Made by a program: the position numbers and the translations under genes. A stretch of DNA of 64,000 nucleotides from Psychrobacter sp. P11F6 (lineage in GTDB: Bacteria > Pseudomonadota > Gammaproteobacteria > Pseudomonadales > Moraxellaceae): positions 62,001 through 126,000 of the forward strand of contig NZ_CM003594.1 in the NCBI RefSeq assembly GCF_001435295.1. The letters are read 5' to 3'. The notes under the pieces were generated by a model. That model had not been told where the DNA came from. It saw nothing but the letters and a program-made list of their open reading frames with translations, and did no database searches. Of the stretch, positions 3,589-53,403 are shown piece by piece (the stretch's first letter is position 1; each line of letters begins with the position of its first letter).

Positions 3589-5610
3589 ATGATCGAATTT
3601 AAAGACGTTGGTGTTCGCCGTGATGGTCGTGAGTTGTTTGCAGGGGCAAGCTTCCAGCTACATCCGGGCCACAAAGTTGGCTTGACGGGCAACAACGGCA
3701 CCGGCAAATCTACCTTATTTGCCTTATTGTTGACGCGAATGGGCAGAGGAGATACCGAGGTCACGCTTGATAGAGGTGAAGTCAGTATTCCTGATAGCTG
3801 GCATGTGGCACACATGGCTCAGGAAGTTGGCGCTACGACGCAGTCTGCGATCGATTATGTATTGAGCGGTGATGAGCAGTGGTATGAGATTAATGCTTCT
3901 TTGAATGATTTGAGTAGCGTCAGTGATGATCAGATCGGGGTATTGCATCAGCAGTTCGATGAAATTGATGGCTATCGCACACCGACTAAAGCGGCACAAA
4001 TCATGGCAGGTCTTGGTTTTAATACCAGCCAGCATGAATTGCCAGTAGAAGGGTTTTCGGGTGGTTGGCGCATGCGTTTGAATCTCGCCAAAACATTGAT
4101 GAGCCGTGCGGACTTAATGTTACTCGATGAGCCGACCAACCATTTGGATTTGGATGCGATTCTGTGGCTTGAGACGTGGATCAATGCCTATACTGGTCTG
4201 GTCATCGTCATCTCGCATGACCAAGCCTTTTTGGATGCCACCGTTGGTCATATCTTGCATGTCGAACAACAAAAAATCACCCTTTATACCGGTAACTATC
4301 AGCAATTTATCCGCACCCGTCACGAGCGTATGGCGCAGCAGCAGCAAGCGTTTGAAAAACAAGAAGCGACTAAAGCACACTTGGATGACTTTATTCGTCG
4401 TTTCCGTGCTAAAGCCAGTAAAGCTAAGCAAGCACAAAGCCGTATCAAGCAGCTTGAGCGCATGGCTGAGCTGTCACCGATGATGGCGGACAACCCGTTC
4501 TCTTTCCGCTTTTATGAGCCAGCAAATATGAGCTCACCACTGATTGAGCTGACCAAAGCGGATATTGGCTATAGCGATACGCCACTTCTATATAATGCCA
4601 ATGTGCAAGTAACGCCGGATACGCGTCTTGGCTTGCTAGGTATGAATGGCGCAGGTAAATCAACACTGATTAAAGCACTGGTCGGCGAGCTTGGCGTATT
4701 AACAGGGACGTATCGTGTTTCGGATACCCTAAAATTAGGCTACTTCAACCAGCATCAAATGGATATCTTGGATGCCAAAGCCACGCCGATAGAGATGTTG
4801 CGTCGTCTAGCCGGTAAAACCTCTGATGCGATGCTACGCTCATTTTTAGGCAGTTTTGACTTCCGCGGTGAGCGTATTGATACGCCGAGTGAGCTATTCT
4901 CTGGGGGCGAGCGTGCGCGTTTGACGCTGGCATTGATTGTTTGGCAACGTCCCAACGTTCTGGTACTCGATGAGCCGACCAACCATTTGGACTTACAAAT
5001 GCGCCAAGCGTTGACCATCGCCTTGCAAGGATTTGAGGGGGCAGTGGTACTGGTTTCGCATGATCGTGAGTTGATTGCCAACGTCTGTGATGAGCTGTTT
5101 TTGGTACATGATGGTCAAATCGAGGAGTTCGATGGTGACATCAGCGACTACGGTAAGTGGTTGGCAGAGAAGCGTAAACAAGAGAACTCATCAGATAAAA
5201 GTACCAGTAAGAAGAAAAGTAAAAAAGAGAGTAAGAAATTCGTTTCACGTGAAACAGATAATGGTCAAGTGAATAATAAAGCACCTGATAATTCATCAAA
5301 AAGTAAAGCGACGACGCCTACGCTTAGTAAAGATGCGCAGCGCAAATTGGCGGCTGAACAACGCAAACTCACCGCGCCTATTCGCCGTGAGATAGAAGAG
5401 ATAGAAAAAGCATTGGCTAAAATTGATGGACAGCTCGTGACGCTTGAAGAAAAACTGGCTGATACGGATTTGTACGAAGAAAGTCGCAAGTCTGATTTGC
5501 TGTTATTACTTAACGAGCAAACGGCATTGCAGCAGCAGCACAGTGACAATGAAGAAAAACTATTGCTTTTGATGACAACATTAGAAGAAATGGAAGCGGG
5601 TTTTGAGTAG
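3589..5610 (+). CDS. yheS: ABC-F family ATPase, YheS type
   Basis: Soluble twin-ATPase protein of the ABC-F family. Members bind the ribosomal E site and act on stalled or specialised translation states; there are no membrane segments. Two nucleotide-binding domains are visible. The first has Walker A GNNGTGKST at 34-42, signature FSGGWRMRL near 155 and Walker B ending DEPTNHLD near 180. The second has GMNGAGKST near 351, FSGGERARL near 435 and DEPTNHLD near 465. The charged interdomain linker (about 240-320) is typical. The 673-residue length and the opening MIEFKDVGVRRDG match YheS better than Uup. The tail from about 530 is Lys/Ser-rich, then a coiled coil. The start has a GAAGAGA ribosome site. 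Confidence 0.93.
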   Translation: MIEFKDVGVRRDGRELFAGASFQLHPGHKVGLTGNNGTGKSTLFALLLTRMGRGDTEVTLDRGEVSIPDSWHVAHMAQEVGATTQSAIDYVLSGDEQWYEINASLNDLSSVSDDQIGVLHQQFDEIDGYRTPTKAAQIMAGLGFNTSQHELPVEGFSGGWRMRLNLAKTLMSRADLMLLDEPTNHLDLDAILWLETWINAYTGLVIVISHDQAFLDATVGHILHVEQQKITLYTGNYQQFIRTRHERMAQQQQAFEKQEATKAHLDDFIRRFRAKASKAKQAQSRIKQLERMAELSPMMADNPFSFRFYEPANMSSPLIELTKADIGYSDTPLLYNANVQVTPDTRLGLLGMNGAGKSTLIKALVGELGVLTGTYRVSDTLKLGYFNQHQMDILDAKATPIEMLRRLAGKTSDAMLRSFLGSFDFRGERIDTPSELFSGGERARLTLALIVWQRPNVLVLDEPTNHLDLQMRQALTIALQGFEGAVVLVSHDRELIANVCDELFLVHDGQIEEFDGDISDYGKWLAEKRKQENSSDKSTSKKKSKKESKKFVSRETDNGQVNNKAPDNSSKSKATTPTLSKDAQRKLAAEQRKLTAPIRREIEEIEKALAKIDGQLVTLEEKLADTDLYEESRKSDLLLLLNEQTALQQQHSDNEEKLLLLMTTLEEMEAGFE

Positions 5611-5683
5611 AGAGCTGTTCGTTATAGTAAATAGCGGGTTTTGATTGTTTTTTAAGCTATTTTTACTTGATAAAGACAGTCAC

Positions 5684-5715
5684 AAAAAAGGGAGAGCGCT
5701 GGCTCTCCCTTTTTT
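5684..5715. terminator. Bidirectional terminator between yheS and rlpA-like gene
   Basis: AAAAAAGGGAGAGC, a 4-base loop, then GCTCTCCCTTTTTT. It is symmetrical, so it can end both the plus-strand yheS transcript and the minus-strand rlpA-like transcript. Confidence 0.9.
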
Positions 5716-5721
5716 ATTACG

Positions 5722-6084
5722 TTATTCCTTACGGTATTTACCATCACCATAAGACAGTATTTCCATCGTGGTCGTACATAACTGACAGTTTATTTGACCA
5801 GCAGCGGCTTTCGATAAATCCAAAATACGACCCCGAATGAAAGGGCCTCTATCGGTAATTTTTACGATTACACTCTGCTTTGTCTTCTTGTTGGTCACTT
5901 GTACCTTCGTACCAAACGGCAACGTGCGATGCGCAGCGGTCAAAGAGTTCATGTTGAAGATACTACCACTAGCAGTGCGTTTACCGTGGAACTGACTACC
6001 GTAATAACTGGTGTTTCCAGCAAAAACGGTGGTACTCAGCAATAGTGATAATGTGATAACCAAAGACTTGATTAAATAAGACAT
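5722..6084 (-). CDS. RlpA-like double-psi beta-barrel protein
   Basis: Exported single-domain protein of the RlpA/DPBB family. Full-length RlpA proteins cleave or bind septal peptidoglycan lacking stem peptides. Residues 1-22 form a clear signal peptide ending at a FAG site. The rest is one double-psi barrel with the conserved YYGSQFHGKRTASG (27-40), AHRTLPFGT (51-59) and TDRGPF (77-82) blocks, including the His and Asp that are catalytic in active members. At 120 residues it lacks the SPOR domain and lipobox of classical RlpA, so it is a short paralogue whose activity is not certain. An AAAGGT ribosome site precedes the ATG. Confidence 0.88.
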   Translation of the reverse strand: MSYLIKSLVITLSLLLSTTVFAGNTSYYGSQFHGKRTASGSIFNMNSLTAAHRTLPFGTKVQVTNKKTKQSVIVKITDRGPFIRGRILDLSKAAAGQINCQLCTTTMEILSYGDGKYRKE

Positions 6085-6656
6085 TTAATACCTTTAAGCA
6101 ATTTATAAAATAGACAGATACACTTGCCTATGTTATTCATACTCCCTATGAGTACAAATAATATATTCATTTTACAACACATACTTTGTCATATTCTTAC
6201 GGTTCTGTAAAAGAACTACCAAGGTCAAAACGCTCATTTAGGCACGCTAGCTAGTGAATACCAGTGATCTGTATGTAATTGTTTTAAATAATGATTTACA
6301 TTGTTAATGGTATTTTTGGCTTGACACTCTATTTTTTCATTAGGGCGAGTGTTAAATTGATATAACGTCTGTGGTTATCAAAGAATAGTAATGTCAGAAT
6401 CATAGAGAAATATGCCAATGCAGTGACAAAGGCGAATCATAATGTATTAAATGCTTCAAACAACTTAAACACTGCTGTTGTTCGGCACTATTACTGGTAA
6501 TATTTGTATAACGGTATTGAATTTTTATATTACTATCATTATTAGATAGACTATCGTTACCACCTGTTATGTCGCAGTTGAATAAATTTCCGTACCATAT
6601 CGTTTAAAATGGGCATACCAGTATCATTAACATGCTTTTATGTTGAGGACAAAAAC
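6085..6656. other. Intergenic region rlpA-like / cbpA
   Basis: About 570 A+T-rich bases between divergent genes. It carries an inverted repeat at 6321-6355 and must hold the promoters of both neighbours. No gene was recognised. The frame of cbpA is open back to 6609, but the extra residues lack a good ribosome site. Confidence 0.5.
6321..6355. promoter_or_regulatory. Inverted repeat upstream of cbpA
   Basis: TTGACACTC and GAGTGTTAA are near-perfect inverted repeats (one mismatched pair) separated by 17 bases. The left arm contains a consensus -35 (TTGACA). The arms resemble the HrcA/CIRCE arms TTAGCACTC/GAGTGCTAA, but the CIRCE spacer is 9, so an HrcA site is not claimed. A TATAAC sequence follows near 6360. 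Confidence 0.35.
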
Positions 6657-7640
6657 ATGGCAGAGAAAAATTACTATGACATTTTAGGGGTCAAAAAAGA
6701 CGCGTCAGCTGCAGATATTAAAAAAAGATACCGTAAGCTTGTCCGTCAATATCACCCTGATGTGAGCGATGATCCAGATGCAGACAATAAGATTGCTGAG
6801 ATTAATAATGCTTACGAAACCATTAGAGATAAAGAAAAGCGTGCCGAATACGACGCCATGCTAGACAATCCCTTTGCTGGTCAAAGTGGTGGTTTTGGTG
6901 GTCAATCTGCAAGTGGCGGGCAAGGCGGCTATCGCTGGGAAGATATCAAAGATCAGTTTGGTGAAGGCGAAGCTTATGGCGATGGTGGCTTCCGCTTCGA
7001 TGACATCTTTTCGGCATTTGGTCGCGGTGCACGTGGTTCAGCGGGTGGACAATCGCAGCGTGGTGGTTTTGGCTCGCAAGATAGTAAAGGTCAAGATCAA
7101 CATGCAGAGATTACGGTTGATTTGGCGTCCGTTTATAATGGCGACGACTACAGCATTAAGTTGAATGTCCCTATTCGTCAACCGAATGGCAGTGTCGAGT
7201 ATGACAACAAAACGCTGAAAATTAAAATTCCTAAAGGCATCACTGATGGTAAGCAAATTCGCCTAGCAGGGCAAGGTGCCGCTGGTATTGGTGGCGGTAA
7301 AAATGGCGATTTATTTTTAAAAGTAAAAATCCGTCACGCAGACAATATCCGTATCGAAGGCGCTGATGTTTATCAAACCGTCAATATAGCGCCATGGGAA
7401 GCGGCGTTGGGTGAAAAAATCAACGTCAGTACGCCAGCTGGTACGCTTGCTGTGACTGTGCCTAAGAACAGTAAGTCTGGCAGCAATTTACGCCTAAAAG
7501 GTAAAGGTATCCCTGCTAAGCAAGCGGGTGATTTGTATCTAACCTTAAACATCGTGAACCCTGATATCAGCACTGAGGCCGCGACCCAAGCTTATGAGCA
7601 ACTAAAACAAGCCTTTGCCGATATCAATATTAGTCGTTAA
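6657..7640 (+). CDS. cbpA: DnaJ-class co-chaperone CbpA
   Basis: J-domain co-chaperone that stimulates DnaK ATPase and, in E. coli, also binds curved DNA. The ATG at 6657 follows GAGGAC at good spacing and gives 327 residues, the usual CbpA size; an upstream extension to 6609 is unlikely. The J domain occupies about 1-70 with the HPD motif at 33-35. A Gly/Gln/Ser-rich linker runs from about 75 to 140, then two beta-rich DnaJ C-terminal domains. There is no CxxCxGxG zinc finger, which separates it from DnaJ. cbpM follows by about 90 bases, the usual arrangement for this chaperone and its inhibitor. Confidence 0.94.
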   Translation: MAEKNYYDILGVKKDASAADIKKRYRKLVRQYHPDVSDDPDADNKIAEINNAYETIRDKEKRAEYDAMLDNPFAGQSGGFGGQSASGGQGGYRWEDIKDQFGEGEAYGDGGFRFDDIFSAFGRGARGSAGGQSQRGGFGSQDSKGQDQHAEITVDLASVYNGDDYSIKLNVPIRQPNGSVEYDNKTLKIKIPKGITDGKQIRLAGQGAAGIGGGKNGDLFLKVKIRHADNIRIEGADVYQTVNIAPWEAALGEKINVSTPAGTLAVTVPKNSKSGSNLRLKGKGIPAKQAGDLYLTLNIVNPDISTEAATQAYEQLKQAFADINISR

Positions 7641-7732
7641 TGGCCACCAAAAATTACTCACATTGAAACACTGTAATAGAGATGAAGACCATACGACAAC
7701 GATGAAATAAAGAGCAAACGAGGATAATAGCT

Positions 7733-8056
7733 ATGAAACACTCGCCTGAATTTACCGACATTATCATGAGCTTGGATGAGCTGGTATCTGCCTGTGGCCA
7801 AGAGCGCCAATGGGTCATCGAATTGATTGAAGAGGACATCATCGAATATGATGTGCCGGAACGTGAGCAGTTCACTGGTTATCAGCTGACGACAGTGCGG
7901 CGTGCCTCGCGCCTTAGCCGCGACTTTGAAGCCAGTGTTCCTGCGATTGGCTTGATACTTGAGTTATTGGATGAGCTCGAACAATTACGCCAATTTAAAC
8001 GCCAATTAGACATGCAGACACCAGTGATTGAAATTGAAATCGATCCTTTAAAATAA
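7733..8056 (+). CDS. cbpM: CbpA modulator CbpM
   Basis: Small MerR-like helical protein that binds the CbpA J domain and blocks its stimulation of DnaK. The 107-residue product begins near a LDELVSACGQERQWVIELIEE helix pair and ends in a Leu-rich helical segment (LILELLDELEQLRQFKRQLD region), as in the family. A CGAGGA ribosome site precedes the ATG. It sits directly downstream of cbpA and before a strong terminator, so the two form a bicistronic unit. Confidence 0.9.
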   Translation: MKHSPEFTDIIMSLDELVSACGQERQWVIELIEEDIIEYDVPEREQFTGYQLTTVRRASRLSRDFEASVPAIGLILELLDELEQLRQFKRQLDMQTPVIEIEIDPLK

Positions 8057-8094
8057 CTTATTTCCCCTTTATTCAGTACATAAAAAATCAGCAC

Positions 8095-8128
8095 AAAAAA
8101 AGGGTCTCTAAAATGAGACCCTTTTTTT
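8095..8128. terminator. Bidirectional terminator cbpM / sstT
   Basis: AAAAAAAGGGTCTC, 6-base loop, GAGACCCTTTTTTT. It is placed between the convergent cbpM and sstT genes and can serve both. Confidence 0.92.
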
Positions 8129-8148
8129 GCAAATAATATATTTAGCGT

Positions 8149-9351
8149 TTAACGCGCATATTTTGGATCAGCTGCTGCGGTAAACAGTACATCCGTTGAA
8201 GAGTTCAACGCCGTTTCTGCTGAATCCTGTATCACACCAATGATAAAGCCAATCGCAACCACTTGCATGGCGATATCATTTGGAATGCTAAATAAGCTTG
8301 CTGCCAATGGAATTAAGAGTAATGAACCACCAGCGACACCAGAGGCACCGCAGGCACTAATGGTTGCAACCAAACTGAGTAGCAGTGCTGAGGCAAAGGT
8401 CACTTCAATACCGAGTGTATGCGCGGCTGCAAGCGTTAAGACGTTAATCGTAATCGCCGCGCCGGCCATATTAATGGTCGCACCCAGTGGAATCGTTACC
8501 GAATAAGTATCTTCGTGTAGACCCAGTTTGCGGGCAAGGTTCATATTGACGGGAATGTTAGCAGCCGAGCTACGCGTAAAGAATGCGGTAATCCCTGACT
8601 CACGCAAGCATTTGAATACTAGCGGATAAGGGTTTTTGCCCGTTTTGATCAGTACAATAATAGGATTGGCAATCAAAGCGATAAATAACATACAACCGAC
8701 CAGTACCATCAAGATACGCGCATAACCTGCCAAAGCCGCAAAGCCTGTTTCAGCGACGGTGTTGGCGACCAAACCCAAGATACCAAAAGGTGCTAGGGCA
8801 ATGACCCACTTCACCACTTGGGAGATGGCGTCAGAAAAATCACCGACCACAGCGCGTGTGGTATCACTGGCTTGGCGCAGTGCGAAACCGATGATAATTG
8901 CCCACGCTAAAATACCAATATAGTTGGCTTCAGCGATGGCATTAACAGGATTGGCAACCAGATTTAGTAGTAGGTTGGTCAGTACTTCTTTGAGGTTGGC
9001 TGGTGGGACTTGCTCAATTGTGGCGTTGACCAATACCAGTTCTGTCGGGAATAAAAAGCTCGCGCCAACAGCAGTCAGTGCGGCTAAAAAAGTGCCAAAC
9101 ATATACATGATAAGCACAGGCTTGACGTAAACCTCATTACCGCTGCGATGTTGGCTAATGGCCGCCATGACCAACACAAATACCAGTATTGGTGCAACGG
9201 CTTTTAGTGCTCCTACAAATAAGGTACCCAACAATCCTAAGGCAATACCGATATCTGGTGCCAACCAACCTATCAATACTCCCGCTATCAAACCGATAAT
9301 AATAAGTGGTACTAGACCAATGCGCTTATACATCGCAAAAAATGAATACAT
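8149..9351 (-). CDS. sstT: Serine/threonine:Na+ symporter SstT (copy 1)
   Basis: Inner-membrane Na+-coupled uptake of serine and threonine, in the dicarboxylate/amino acid:cation symporter family. The 400-residue protein has 8 or so membrane spans and the re-entrant loops of the fold. Visible family signatures are the [15 protein letters not shown] segment (about 270-285), followed by the [15 protein letters not shown] motif (about 298-312). It lies in tandem with a colinear, gap-free paralogue of the same length upstream. The two differ mostly in conservative residues. It probably has its own promoter in the gap at 9352-9480. Confidence 0.92.
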
Positions 9352-9477
9352 CCTTACCCCGACAATCTAATGAATAATAAAAGAGATCAAGCCATTTTAT
9401 GTTTTTTGCTTTACTAGTCTCATACTCATATACAGGTAAGATTCGTAAAACAGAATAAAAATGGGTAAATTATAACT

Positions 9478-9504
9478 AAAAAAAGGGCAGTTAAGCCCTT
9501 TTTT
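9478..9504. terminator. Terminator between the two sstT copies
   Basis: AAAAAAAGGGC, short loop, GCCCTTTTTT. It lies beyond the stop of the upstream sstT copy, read on the minus strand, which suggests that the two paralogues are transcribed separately. Confidence 0.8.
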
Positions 9505-9558
9505 ATTTTTATACCTATCAATTTAAGATGATTGGTTTGTTATGGTCGTCTTAAACAT

Positions 9559-9616
9559 GGTCTGTTGAATATTCACAAATAGGCACTGTCAGTGCCATGG
9601 TCGTCTTTAACAGACC
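9559..9616. repeat. Nested inverted repeat in the 3' region of sstT copy 2
   Basis: Outer arms GGTCTGTT (9559-9566) and AACAGACC (9609-9616) enclose an inner perfect palindrome GGCACTG-T-CAGTGCC (9582-9596). An ATGGTCGTCTT direct repeat (about 9542 and 9597) overlaps it. It is not a T-tailed terminator; it could be a 3'-UTR RNA structure or a protein-binding site. Confidence 0.5.
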
Positions 9617-9621
9617 CAACA

Positions 9622-10824
9622 TTAGCGTGCATATTTTGGATCAGCAGCGGCAGTAAATAAGACGTCTGTTGATGAGTTCAATGCGGTCTCTGCGGAGTCT
9701 TGCAGCACACTAATAATAAAGCCAATAGCCACCACTTGTAGCGCAATATCATCAGGAATATTGAATAAACTGGCCGCCAAAGGAATGAGTAGTAATGAGC
9801 CACCAGCGACGCCAGAGGTACCGCCAGCACTGATTGTAGCGACTATACTTAGCAGTAATGCTGAGCCAAAGGTCACTTCAATACCGAGTGTATTCGCGGC
9901 TGCAAGGGTTAACACATTAATAGTAATAGCGGCACCTGCCATATTAATAGTGGCGCCTAATGGCAGGGTGACTGAATAAGTATTTTCATGTAACCCTAAT
10001 TTGCTGGCAAGGTTCATATTGATAGGAATGTTGGCAGCAGAGCTACGGGTAAAAAACGCAGTAATACCAGATTCACGTAAGCAGGTGAATACCAGTGGAT
10101 AAGGGTTTTTACCCGTTTTGAAATATACGAGGAGAGGGTTCGTCACCAAAGCAATAAACAACATGCAGCCTATCAATACTAGCAAAATTCGTGCATAGCC
10201 CAATAACGCAGCAAAGCCAGTATCAGCGACGGTATTGGCGACTAATCCCAAAATGCCAAAAGGTGCTAGCGAGATGACCCATTTGACTACTTTTGAGATG
10301 GCATCTGCAACGTCATTGACAGTGCTGCGAGTCGTCTCGCCAGCTTGTCGTAGCGCAATGCCAATAATAACGGCCCAAGCTAATATACCGATATAATTAG
10401 CATTGGCTAGTGCAGCAACTGGATTGGCGACGAGACTGAGTAATAAATTATTCAATACTTCTTTTAAGTTTGCTGGCGGTACTTGCTCGATGGTCGCATT
10501 CACTAACGTCAATTCGGTTGGGAATAAAAAGCTGGCACCAACAGCGACCAAAGCGGCTATAAAAGTGCCTATCAGATATAAAAACAGCACTGGTTTTACA
10601 TAGACCTTATTCCCGCTACGATGTTGACAGATAGCTGCCATCACTAAGAAAAACACCAATATAGGGGCAACGGCTTTTAGGGCACCTACGAACAGAGTCC
10701 CCAAAATCCCTAAGGCAATACCCACACTTGGCGCCAGCCATCCTATCAAAGTACCTAGTACTAAACCGATAACAATCAGCGTTACCAATCCGATTCGTTG
10801 GTACATCGCTATTAATGAATGCAT
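9622..10824 (-). CDS. sstT: Serine/threonine:Na+ symporter, SstT family (copy 2)
   Basis: Second member of the tandem pair, also 400 residues with the same [15 protein letters not shown] and [15 protein letters not shown] motifs, colinear with copy 1 from the first to the last residues (both end in AADPKYAR). Substrate is expected to be serine/threonine by family. Duplicate retention suggests different affinity, expression or substrate range, which the sequence does not decide. Its downstream terminator at about 9490 separates it from copy 1. Confidence 0.9.
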
Positions 10825-48722: not shown

Positions 48723-50918
48723 TTAAATCGCCTCGTGAGTCGTTTGAGCATTGCTTTCAATATTGGCAGCATCGTCATTTTTAGCGTTATCAAAACCGCT
48801 ATGACGTAATAACGCATCAATGCTGGCGCTACGACCACGGAAGTTTTCAAAGTTGGTCTTGGCAGGGAAACTACCACCAACGGATAAAATTGTCTCACGG
48901 AAGGCTTTACCAGTGACAGGGTTAAAAATACCTTCTTCTTCAAACTTGCTAAAGGCATCTGCCGATAGCAACTCTGCCCATTTATACGAGTAATAACCTG
49001 CCGCATAGCCGCCTGCAAAGATATGACTAAAGCCGTTGGCAAAACGGTTGTAGTCAGGTGTCTGCATGATAGCAATGTCGTCTCGAACGGTATTTAGCGT
49101 GGCTAATATACCATCATAATCTAGCGCTGGCGTCTGCGCATGAATCAATAAGTCAAACAGTGCGAATTCGATTTGACGTAGGGTTTGCATGCCGCTTTGG
49201 AAATTCTTTACCGCCAATAACGCTGCAAGTTTGTCTTTTGGTAATGGCGCACCGGTTTCGACGTGGCTACTAATCAGCGCAATACCTTCGGCATCCCACG
49301 CCCAGTTTTCCATAAATTGACTGGGCAGCTCGACCGCGTCCCACTCAACGCCATTGACACCAGCGACATCACCGACCGTCACTTGGGTTAATAAATGATG
49401 TAGGCCGTGACCAAACTCATGGAATAGAGTCAATACTTCATCATGCGTCAATAAGCTTGGTTTGCCATCGAGGGCAGGGGTAAAGTTACCCACCATAAAG
49501 CATACTGGTAGCTGCTGATGATTTTGTTCACTGTAAGTATAACGTGACTGAAAACCACTCATCCAAGCGCCGCCGCGTTTACCACTGCGTGCAAATAAGT
49601 CAAAGTAAAAGCCACCAAGCAAGTTATCATCAGCATCAAACAACTGATAAAAGCTGACATCGTCGTGCCAGCGTGATACGGATTCACTTTGCTCTTGGAC
49701 TTTGATACCGTACAGACGCTCAACGATGGCAAATAATCCGCTAATTACTTTTGGTAAGGGAAAGTACGGGCGGATTTCTTCTTGCGATAAGCTGAACTCG
49801 CTTTGTTTGACTTTTTCAGCGATATACGCACTGTCCCATGCCTGTAACTCATCTATACCATAATCTTGCGCATACTTTTGCAACTGAGCTAAGTCTTGCT
49901 TAGCCGCTGGAGTTGCTTGCGTGGCCAAACTCCGTAAAAAGGTTTCTACTTCTGCCACGTTATCTGCCATTTTAGTCGATAGTGAGACTTCTGCATAATT
50001 GTCAAAACCCAATAGCTTGGCTTTTTGCTCACGTAGTTGCAGGATTTGACTCATGATATCGGCGTTATTTAGCGACTCACCTTTGGCATTGGTATGCGCA
50101 TCAAACTCAGAAGCACGAGTGACATAAGCGCGGTATAGGGTCTCGCGCAGTTCACGGTCATCCGCATGGGTCATGATGGCAAGATAAACAGGAATGTTTA
50201 AGCTTGCCACGTAGTAAGGATTTGGCAACGCATCGACTTCTACTTGCGTGAGCGTACCGTTGGCAAGCGCGCGCGCTTTATACTGTTCGCCAGCATCTGC
50301 GAGTAGCGCCAGTCCACTTTCTGTTAGACCTGCCAATTGTTCTTGTTGCAGCGGTAAGGCATAAGCTTGGGTGGCATCCAATACGTTATCTGAAAAGGTC
50401 GCTGATAAGGTAGAAAGCTGACTTTGAATAGCTGCAAACTTTTCCTGTTTATCTTTTGGTAATGCGACACCTGACAGCTCAAAACTGCGTAGCGCAAGCT
50501 CAATAGCCCGCGCTCGTGCAGGCTCAAGCGCAGCAAAAAATGCTGTGTCATTGACGATAGTTTGATAACGATTAAATAGCGGCTGGTGCTGTCCCACACG
50601 TGTGCCATAAGCTGATAGTGTGGGTAGCAGTTCATGATGGACATGACGAATGTCGTCATTGCTCATGACGCTATTCAGGTGCGATAAAATGCCCCAACTG
50701 CGATCCAATGCCAGATTAATATGATCAAAAGTCATAATATCAGCCAGCGCTTGCTCAGCACTGATATTAGCAGCGCTATCATGGTTGTCAGTATCTGCAC
50801 TCATCTCATCTAAAAATGTATTGGCTGCATCGATGGCACTGATGACATGGCTTTGTAATGTACTTGGCGAAACGTTGTCAAAATCGACAAGGCGTAAATC
50901 TGCAGGAAGGGTTTTCAT
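48723..50918 (-). CDS. prlC: Oligopeptidase A (PrlC)
   Basis: Cytoplasmic M3 zinc metallopeptidase that degrades signal peptides and short oligopeptides. The HEFGHGLHHLL zinc-binding motif lies near residues 501-511, with the third ligand Glu in the following helix. The 731-residue length exceeds E. coli PrlC (680); extra residues are an Asp/Ala-rich loop near 40-55 and an Asn/Asp-rich C-terminal tail. In E. coli, the gene is heat-inducible; no heat promoter is recognised here. Translationally linked to yheV. Confidence 0.95.
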   Translation of the reverse strand: MKTLPADLRLVDFDNVSPSTLQSHVISAIDAANTFLDEMSADTDNHDSAANISAEQALADIMTFDHINLALDRSWGILSHLNSVMSNDDIRHVHHELLPTLSAYGTRVGQHQPLFNRYQTIVNDTAFFAALEPARARAIELALRSFELSGVALPKDKQEKFAAIQSQLSTLSATFSDNVLDATQAYALPLQQEQLAGLTESGLALLADAGEQYKARALANGTLTQVEVDALPNPYYVASLNIPVYLAIMTHADDRELRETLYRAYVTRASEFDAHTNAKGESLNNADIMSQILQLREQKAKLLGFDNYAEVSLSTKMADNVAEVETFLRSLATQATPAAKQDLAQLQKYAQDYGIDELQAWDSAYIAEKVKQSEFSLSQEEIRPYFPLPKVISGLFAIVERLYGIKVQEQSESVSRWHDDVSFYQLFDADDNLLGGFYFDLFARSGKRGGAWMSGFQSRYTYSEQNHQQLPVCFMVGNFTPALDGKPSLLTHDEVLTLFHEFGHGLHHLLTQVTVGDVAGVNGVEWDAVELPSQFMENWAWDAEGIALISSHVETGAPLPKDKLAALLAVKNFQSGMQTLRQIEFALFDLLIHAQTPALDYDGILATLNTVRDDIAIMQTPDYNRFANGFSHIFAGGYAAGYYSYKWAELLSADAFSKFEEEGIFNPVTGKAFRETILSVGGSFPAKTNFENFRGRSASIDALLRHSGFDNAKNDDAANIESNAQTTHEAI

Positions 50919-51373
50919 AAAAGTATCCGATATCTGATCGTAGTGAATGAATTATTATTGAGTAAACGTAGCTTTATATAAGAGATTGGCTTGCCGTGAC
51001 ATTTAGAACATCATTAGCTTTGTGTTATTTTTATTTTTTGCTGTCTTATCGATAAGCTATATAAAAGATGGGTTCGTTTGACGAAAATACAACCTAATCA
51101 TTAACTATAAAGAAAGTGAAGCGAGAAGATAGTGAATATTAAACGGGTTTAAAGTCGTTCCGTCAGGCTTTTAGAACAATACAGAGTGTTCTACTTACAA
51201 AGCGCTATCATTTGCTTGCAAATTAACCCTACAGCGAGTGAGGTTTGACTGCTAGCATCAAGGCAATGGAATAAAAAGATTAAGCACTATTTATAGCAAA
51301 AACTATGAATCAGTTAATTAATAGTAAAAATCACAATGTTAAAAGTAAATGATAATAAAACAAGGAGCAATAA
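50919..51373. other. Divergent intergenic region prlC / Balon-like gene
   Basis: About 455 bases without a gene. Divergent promoters are expected. A TTGACT at 51245-51250 followed after 18 bases by GAATAA is a weak candidate for the hibernation-factor promoter. A good AAGGAG ribosome site stands eight bases before the ATG. Confidence 0.5.
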
Positions 51374-52486
51374 ATGAAAGCGACTCTCAAAAGTTTACGT
51401 GAAACCAAAGCCAATCCTGCGGTTAGTATCTTTGTTAAGACTCATCGCGAGCATCCTGCTAATGATCAAGATCCCATTGCCCTGAAGAACCAATTAAAAG
51501 TGGCTGAAGAACGCTTAACCAACGAATACGATAAGCGCACAGCGACTACCATACTCGATAAGATTCATGATAAAACCAAAGAGCTAAATCACAACTTAAA
51601 TCTTGATACCTTGGCTATTTTTGCCAGTACTGAGGATGTACAAGTGATCCGTATGCCGATTGACACCACGGAGCGTGTGGTGATTTCACATCGTTTTGCG
51701 ACTCGAGATTTGGTGCGTGATATGGCAAGTGCGGTGCATTATTACACCTTGGTGCTCACTCGTGATAATGCCCGCTTGATTGAAGCGTCTAATGATCGCG
51801 TAGTGAGAGAGTTCGATAAGGACGACGACCTGCAAAAAAATATGGATAATATCCCATTTCCTATTGAAAACAATGGTCTATATACGACAGGCGATGGTGG
51901 ATCGGATCGCTCGTCTAATAATGAAAGCAGCTATCTAAAAGAGTTTTTTAACCAAGTGGATAAAAGTGTACAAGAGCTGTGGGGTGAGCACAAAATGCCT
52001 TTGGTTGTCGTTGGCGATGCTAAAAATATCGGCTACTATAAAGAAGTTTGTGATCGTCCAGACAACATCATTGCCACAGTGTCAAATGCGACCAATTTAG
52101 AAGATGGTAGTGCTCAGCATATTATCAATAGCGTGCAAGAGGCGGTGGAAGGCTATCGTACATCACTGCATCAAGCTGCCATGGGTGAGATTGATAAAGC
52201 ACGCGGTGCCAATATGTTGCAAACAGATCTACAAGAAGTCTACCGCAGTGCCTTCCAAGGTGCAGGCGAGACGCTTTATGTCCGTCGTGGTTATATACAA
52301 TCGGCCAAAATTGATGAAAAGGCACAGACTTTGAGTCTTGCAGATGATGCGGCTTCAGAAGGCGTTACTGATGATGCCATTGGCGAAATCATTGAGCATG
52401 TCATTCATAATGGTGGCGAAGCAGTATTTATGCCACAAGATATTATGGGTGAAGATCAACCAATTGCATTGGTGACACGCTATTAA
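51374..52486 (+). CDS. Balon-like ribosome hibernation factor (AOC03_06830 family)
   Basis: A 370-residue soluble protein of the bacterial aeRF1/Pelota-like group (BaeRF family 3). Its best-known member, Balon from Psychrobacter urativorans, binds the ribosomal A site with EF-Tu during cold shock and stationary phase, even on translating ribosomes. An N-terminal domain (about 1-125) begins MKATLKSLRETKANPAVSIF. The central domain (about 126-265) carries a loop GDGGSDRSS (173-181) where aeRF1 has GGQ, and the third domain (about 270-370) ends GGEAVFMPQDI...ALVTRY. GGS replaces GGQ, so peptide release is not expected. The A site role is by homology, not shown here. Confidence 0.9.
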   Translation: MKATLKSLRETKANPAVSIFVKTHREHPANDQDPIALKNQLKVAEERLTNEYDKRTATTILDKIHDKTKELNHNLNLDTLAIFASTEDVQVIRMPIDTTERVVISHRFATRDLVRDMASAVHYYTLVLTRDNARLIEASNDRVVREFDKDDDLQKNMDNIPFPIENNGLYTTGDGGSDRSSNNESSYLKEFFNQVDKSVQELWGEHKMPLVVVGDAKNIGYYKEVCDRPDNIIATVSNATNLEDGSAQHIINSVQEAVEGYRTSLHQAAMGEIDKARGANMLQTDLQEVYRSAFQGAGETLYVRRGYIQSAKIDEKAQTLSLADDAASEGVTDDAIGEIIEHVIHNGGEAVFMPQDIMGEDQPIALVTRY

Positions 52487-52556
52487 TTGCTAGATAGTGC
52501 TTATTGATGACAATCCTTTGCGAATTCGCCATTGATAGAAGATAGGTATAATATGG

Positions 52557-52590
52557 GAGCATTGGTTCGATAAGAATCAATGCTCTTTTT
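52557..52590 (+). terminator. Terminator downstream of the Balon-like gene
   Basis: GAGCATTGGTTC, GATAA loop, GAATCAATGCTC (one G:T wobble), then T-run. It makes the hibernation gene a monocistronic unit. Confidence 0.92.
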
Positions 52591-52650
52591 ACATTGATGA
52601 TATATTAAGCCTTTATCTAAAACTTATACTTGATTGCCTTAGGTTATTAA

Positions 52651-53403
52651 ATGATGCGAAATAACATACCAAATACTCTTATGCAATTTAGCGTCACAGC
52701 AATGATAGCCTTTAGCTCCAGTTTCAGTATGGCAGAGACAGATGTGAATAATATATCTGTGAGCCATCTATCATGGGGTCAATTGCCGCCTTCTATTCAA
52801 AACTATTATCAAATAGACTCTAAAAAAAATAAAATGAGGCTAAAGACCAAAGATATTGTTGCTATTCGTTCTTGGATTGGCACAGTAGGAGAACAGTATT
52901 TGGTTCAATTACAGCGTTTCAATTCAACCAATAGCCCTGACGAGCCAGCAGGAGAGGTCTTCACGCATTTATATGTTATAGATGAACAAGAGGCTTTACG
53001 AGTATGGCAAATATATGATTATGTACCCTGCGATGGGTTAGATGTAATCGCAGAATTCGCTAAAAACACCGCCGTAGTGACTGATATTAATAATAACGGT
53101 GTTGTCGAAGTGAGTGTGCCTTATTATCTCGGTTGTCGTGGTGACGTAAGTTATGATGAGATGAAAGTAATCATGTACGAAGGGCAGCAAAAATTTGCTG
53201 TACGTGGTAACTCTGCAATTTGTAACGCCAAGACAGACCAGCCAGTTGATGCTACTGGTTATTACGGTGGTGACTACAAGATTGATGAAAAATTACTACA
53301 GCAATCAGCGCTATCAGCTTCTCAAAAATCAGTATTTAGGCGTCACTTGCAATCAGTGTGGCGAGATAACCAATGTTCCATTTATTTTAAGTATGATGAC
53401 TAA
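52651..53403 (+). CDS. Secreted M949_RS01915-family protein
   Basis: Residues 1-28 form a signal peptide ending SMAETD. The mature protein (about 220 residues) follows the family pattern: VAIRSWIGTVGEQYLV (about 69-84), HLYVIDEQEALRVWQIYDYV (about 106-125), VVTDINNNGVVEVSVPYYLGCRGDVSYDEMKVI (about 146-178), with Asp/Asn-rich motif DINNNGVVEV resembling a calcium-binding loop. The family is named 'surface polysaccharide biosynthesis protein', but I find no catalytic motif and treat function as unknown. A second gene begins 5 bases beyond the stop. Confidence 0.7.
   Translation: MMRNNIPNTLMQFSVTAMIAFSSSFSMAETDVNNISVSHLSWGQLPPSIQNYYQIDSKKNKMRLKTKDIVAIRSWIGTVGEQYLVQLQRFNSTNSPDEPAGEVFTHLYVIDEQEALRVWQIYDYVPCDGLDVIAEFAKNTAVVTDINNNGVVEVSVPYYLGCRGDVSYDEMKVIMYEGQQKFAVRGNSAICNAKTDQPVDATGYYGGDYKIDEKLLQQSALSASQKSVFRRHLQSVWRDNQCSIYFKYDD

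Follow-up and report, generated by a model that had tools for sequence, protein, structure and literature searches.

The window analysed here is a stretch of 64,000 nucleotides from Psychrobacter sp. P11F6 (contig NZ_CM003594.1, positions 62,001 to 126,000), and the locus of interest within it is an ATG-initiated open reading frame (ORF) encoding the ribosome hibernation factor Balon (Table 1), of which this genome holds a single copy. Its upstream neighbour is a divergent gene for oligopeptidase A, an M3 peptidase (PF01432; the PRK10911 match of 704 bits lies below the strict cut-off of 927), and the next ORF downstream, which begins 164 bp past balon, matches the surface polysaccharide family NF046077. 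Among 49 distinct upstream sequences, every base of the ribosome-binding site is conserved in 80% or more. The terminator-like hairpin downstream is not significant alone (one found versus 1.5 expected in shuffles), and a hairpin with T-run follows the stop codon in 70 of 72 scannable relatives, a count made without a shuffle control. The earlier note had described balon as monocistronic with its own terminator, which is reasonable given the divergent upstream gene, the downstream gap and the hairpin within it. Linkage to RaiA, given as the most frequent for balon in the parts of PMC10901736 covered, fails here because the only PF02482 (HPF/RaiA) gene of the genome lies about 220 kb away. This HPF/RaiA match (G000:C1:335206-337449) is found about 1.2 kb from the match taken for RpoH.

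Table 1. Features of the balon locus, in window coordinates.
Feature	Position	Strand	Basis or remark
balon, AOC03_06830-family ribosome hibernation factor, 370 aa	51374..52486	+	NF052287, PF18845, 8rd8_B
His27-Pro28 codons, the probable HP motif for contact with the decoding centre (inferred assignment)	51452..51457	+	THRxHP conservation
Loop GDGGSDRSS, residues 173-181	51890..51916	+	Identical in solved Balon; GG variable in genus
GGEAVFMPQDI	First codon at 52412 (residue 347)	+	Motif named in the earlier note
Ribosome-binding site AAGGAG	51362..51367	+	6 bases before ATG; conserved
E2: TTACAAA (51195-51201) and TTGCAAA (51216-51222), direct repeat at 21-bp spacing; also TTAACCCTA	51194..51231	+	Conservation
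Extended -10-like TGC-TAGCAT	51250..51258	+	TGnTAnnnT at fixed spacing
E1: GTTGTAT-N13-ACCCATCT, read as a sigma32-like promoter serving the divergent gene for oligopeptidase A	51066..51093	-	Strict pattern in 47/74 loci
Intrinsic terminator-like hairpin with T-run	52555..52587	+	Terminator scan, between balon and next ORF

Judged by its sequence, the window protein is an ordinary Balon orthologue and thus a protein already known. It scores 523.2 bits against NF052287, an NCBIfam equivalog named for the type protein AOC03_06830 (cut-off 330; model positions 1 to 361 of 361; 4.2e-157), baeRF_family3 is far its best Pfam family (115.7 bits, cut-off 31.5), and it can be aligned from end to end with residues 1 to 369 of 8rd8_B, a solved Balon chain (E = 3e-206; further entries 8rdv and 8rdw). 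These two E-values, together with a match in each of 60 genomes of the genus, tell us that the ORF is no chance product. The HPF/RaiA domain PF02482 was not found in the protein by the Pfam scan, and neither NIKS nor GGQ occurs anywhere in its 370 residues. Both the ORF and the two motifs named in the earlier note—GDGGSDRSS at residues 173 to 181 and GGEAVFMPQDI from residue 347—were confirmed, and its proposal of a Balon orthologue is borne out by NF052287, baeRF_family3 and the structure-chain alignment; the sequence comparison with Psychrobacter urativorans Balon that it suggested gave a full-length match with an identical GDGGSDRS loop. The molecule name of 8rd8_B is still methyl-accepting chemotaxis protein, a name repeated in some database entries.

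The 60 genomes drawn from Psychrobacter, all with a balon match, include the window genome; in one of them (G032) the match covers residues 1 to 173 only and another (G058) has an internal stop. Across the family, with the genus included, 92 of 199 genomes from 5 of 16 genera have a match, 89 above the NF052287 cut-off and three below it (a 150-bit match and two fragments scoring about 21 bits). For closer comparison we used 74 named loci collected via short query peptides and therefore biased to close relatives, 72 of which have a full-length frame. Nine of these loci are 99 to 100% identical to the window protein over the full length, including P. immobilis, P. cibarius, P. glacincola and P. 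aquimaris, while the named P. urativorans strains show 88% (L138) and 83% (L148) identity. The balon frame stops after 35 codons in Psychrobacter sp. WY6 (L133) and after 53 codons in Psychrobacter sp. JCM 18901 (L157), which could be true loss or sequencing error.

Beyond these loci, no balon match was found in 50,697 phage records, and 13 of 72,556 plasmid records carry one, five of them from Moraxella with 53 to 54% identity to the window protein. Two plasmid loci, L186 (NZ_CP024445.1) and L187 (NZ_CP135141.1), have in common a block of roughly 5.5 kb, nearly identical in sequence (locus coordinates about 4750 to 10250), with genes for an MqsA-type antitoxin, Balon, an alpha/beta hydrolase and nhaA, adjoined by a recombinase gene; when compared at equal offsets, their flanks do not agree. 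From its sequence context, the block looks like a mobile module bearing a hibernation factor. A search for the pdif consensus around the plasmid copies found no match at up to 6 mismatches, and among the literature matches listed no title pointed to a publication on Balon on Moraxella plasmids.

The central loop had been singled out in the earlier note for carrying GGS where release factors carry GGQ, with the expectation that the protein blocks the ribosome rather than hydrolyses. Blocking rather than peptide release is indeed the right expectation, since the protein is a Balon orthologue, but GGS does not distinguish it: the type Balon (8rd8_B) carries GDGGSDRS at the same place. That Balon is without GGQ has already been published, and Rv2629 and Msmeg1130 are likewise described as lacking GGQ and NIKS, so that in the covered parts of PMC10901736 the missing GGQ is a published trait of Balon and its mycobacterial homologues. 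Within the genus, 22 of the 72 full-length named homologues have a triplet other than GGS (AGS in 9, a shorter SGA form in 5, GGT in 4, SGS in 2, GSS and GSA in 1 each), the loops of other genera of the family differ again, and a Q occurs in residues 166 to 182 of none of the 72. The GG of the loop is thus, by this comparison, without the constraint known from release factors, and we rejected GGS as an altered catalytic motif, given its presence in the type protein and its variability within the genus. The same variability inside the genus and among genera could be taken to mean that the GGS loop marks a functional divergence within Balon, giving this lineage an altered contact at the peptidyl-transferase centre. 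We regard this as extremely improbable, because the loop found here is identical to that of the type protein, which already refutes divergence for the window protein, and because GGS is the majority form (50/72).

The stretch THREHP at residues 23 to 28, identical in 8rd8_B, holds what are probably the HP motif residues. THRxHP is found in 73 of the 74 named loci, the exception being L133 with its broken frame; P28 is invariant (27/27) and H27 is substituted in several members from other genera. For the lasso loop, the bL27 trap and the EF-Tu-binding beta-loop of Balon, the comparison covered the sequence alignment with 8rd8_B, which has one single-residue gap. By analogy with the solved orthologue, from which we take the mechanism as given in the covered parts of PMC10901736, the window protein is almost certainly a standard Psychrobacter Balon, both in identity and in mode of action. 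Upon cold shock or in stationary phase it would enter the ribosomal A site, with its N-domain contacting the decoding centre and its loop, devoid of a catalytic glutamine, set beside the peptidyl-transferase centre. Held there with EF-Tu(GDP), Balon would keep translation parked while the peptide is not released.

A different role would be that of an aeRF1/Pelota-type release or rescue factor with a lost or altered catalytic motif, acting in ribosome rescue and not in hibernation, and the Pfam matches do place the protein in the shared aeRF1/Pelota superfamily. For baeRF-1 proteins, relief of stalled ribosomes is suggested as one possibility by Burroughs and Aravind (PMC6514570, covered parts). 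Nevertheless, a rescue factor seems very unlikely to us in view of the equivalog-level match to a protein seen by cryo-EM in hibernating ribosomes and of the complete lack of a loop Q among the 72 full-length named homologues.

The earlier note had also pointed to regulation as a possible source of novelty, which proved a fair lead: a conserved promoter-like footprint, made up of the direct-repeat element E2 and an extended -10-like motif (Table 1), lies 115 to 180 bp before the balon start codon. The core TTACAAA-N14-TTGCAAA is found in 68 of the 74 named loci (67 mismatch-free, one with one mismatch) and is missed in L150, L151, L154, L158, L162 and L164, of which L162 has the same half-sites with a spacing one base shorter. 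Of the 61 distinct sequences compared, all but one (60/61) carry TGnTAnnnT at a fixed offset of +55, counted from the first base of TTACAAA. When the whole 38-base element is considered, the best match has 0 to 4 mismatches in 52 loci, 5 to 10 in 13 and 13 to 20 in nine, the last range overlapping that of one shuffle per upstream sequence (16 to 21). In P. phenylpyruvicus, P. pasteurii and P. piechaudii (L150, L151 and L164) the TTACAAA/TTGCAAA core is absent, and balon may thus be under different control in this group.

To set this conservation against its surroundings, we compared 64 loci (the 74 minus nine near-identical ones and minus L133 with its broken frame). The median is 2 mismatches per 38 bases for E2 versus 15 to 19 for 38-mers clear of E1 and E2; 38-mers overlapping E2 or its -10 have medians of 5, 6, 10 and 12, or 16 where only the first bases are clipped, and those overlapping E1 have medians of 8, 14.5, 16 and 17. 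At 63 loci with a fourfold-site identity to the window below 0.6 (one of them L157, whose frame is broken and which offers few sites for the count), the element has an average identity of 0.88 versus 0.39 at fourfold-degenerate sites of the first 150 codons; since the best match to the element was sought across 700 bases, where shuffled sequence reaches about 0.45 to 0.58, the 0.88 is somewhat flattering. The conservation of E2 is thus not explained by shared ancestry alone. Upstream sequences from another genus carry in 4 of 8 cases a looser, similar arrangement, TACAAA-N-ATCA-N-TTAACC followed by TGTTATAAA, with the remaining 4 lacking it.

We also considered, and rejected, repeated copies of the footprint in this genome. 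A DNA search with 51160-51280 returned the region itself and nine short weak matches, and ATTTGCTTGCAAATTAACCC occurs at up to 3 mismatches only at balon and at one other place, there with 3 mismatches. The looser pattern CTTRCAAA-N13-CTTRCAAA gave 27 genome matches at up to 2 mismatches versus 8 for a reversed control; among 20 of the 27 that were checked, the balon site and L174 lie outside ORFs of at least 90 codons and the other 18 inside one.

A second conserved element, E1, lies closer to the divergent gene on the opposite strand. Its strict pattern, with a spacer of 13 or 14, is present in 47 of 74 loci on the minus strand and in none of the 74 on the other; its absence from 27 of 74 counts against a sigma32-like reading. 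Control of PrlC by sigma32 is stated in the covered parts of PMC8076867. We considered E1 as a control element of balon and rejected this; we read it instead as a sigma32-like promoter that serves the oligopeptidase A gene.

We think it probable, on conservation and spacing, that the upstream footprint is an activator-dependent extended -10 promoter of balon. From it, balon would be transcribed alone, starting about 110 nt before the start codon (at a predicted position near 51265, placed by conservation) and ending at its own hairpin terminator. The -35 region is poor, and an activator would bind the two halves of the direct repeat, TTACAAA near -67 and TTGCAAA near -46, which should share one face of the DNA given this start; the activator would probably be needed for promoter activity. 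Activator-dependent promoters typically look like this, with two half-sites upstream of a poor -35. The TAGCAT hexamer matches TATAAT weakly, and a scan of 50900-52700 for generic sigma-70 promoters gave 4 sites versus 6.2 expected in shuffles, none of them in the balon intergenic region. For RpoS (TIGR02394, cut-off 378.7), no gene of the genome scores above the cut-off, and the two matches of 282 and 145.8 bits are in frames of 662 and 357 aa, which their length and score led us to take for RpoD and RpoH; RpoS-dependent stationary-phase control of balon is therefore not expected. Tentatively, and with somewhat less than even confidence, we suggest an RpoS-free switch-on of Balon in which a putative stress or cold regulator bound to TTACAAA-N14-TTGCAAA acts on the extended -10 promoter of this gene alone.

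Alternatively, the footprint may be no balon promoter and may instead bind or drive something else, for example as the promoter of a small RNA, as a nucleoid protein site or as a control element of the divergent gene. This would fit the variable gap between core and start codon (131 to 512 bases, counted from the last base of the core, across the 68 core-bearing loci) and the apparent resemblance of ATCATTTGCTTG to the IHF consensus. We consider it unlikely, though clearly deserving of weight, because the extended -10-like motif faces balon at a fixed spacing, because the divergent gene has a sigma32-like element of its own, and because Rfam gave no match above gathering score over 50700-52800 and the predicted balon leader is not conserved (38-mers in 51262-51356 have medians of 15 to 18 mismatches). 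We also rejected an RNA thermometer or leader RNA, for which the same Rfam search gave five weak matches only, and a sigma54 promoter, whose -24 GG is missing. A BfmR/RstA-type regulator was dropped as no motif for it turned up among the literature matches listed.

The Balon protein and its mechanism are already known: the window protein is no new kind of factor and comes from the genus in which Balon was discovered. What the locus adds, modestly and in testable form, is the promoter footprint. The possible value lies in the route by which Balon is switched on, which the covered parts of PMC10901736 do not treat; the words promoter and UTR are absent from its main text. Among the matches listed, a literature search found no work on balon control in Psychrobacter. 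Being sharp within a fast-changing intergenic region, the footprint offers a 65-bp DNA bait for the regulator in Psychrobacter arcticus. A Balon-deficient strain has been made in this species (PMC10901736, covered parts).

Compared with known systems, the window protein is closest to P. urativorans Balon (AOC03_06830; PDB 8rd8, 8rdv and 8rdw), with which it shares the full-length alignment, the GDGGSDRS loop and the THREHP stretch, and from which it differs by scattered substitutions and one single-residue gap, with one residue of difference in length and the flagged loop unchanged. Other baeRF-1 families (6, 7, 8 and 11) match more weakly, with family 3 far ahead. The mycobacterial homologues Rv2629 and Msmeg1130 are alike in A-site binding and in the absence of GGQ and NIKS (PMC10901736, covered parts) but far more distant from the window protein, and they were not recovered by sequence profile in the PDB search. 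eRF1/aRF1 and Pelota/Dom34 share the three-domain layout, yet their identity is put at 10% in the same parts of PMC10901736, and the window protein, unlike them, is without GGQ and NIKS.
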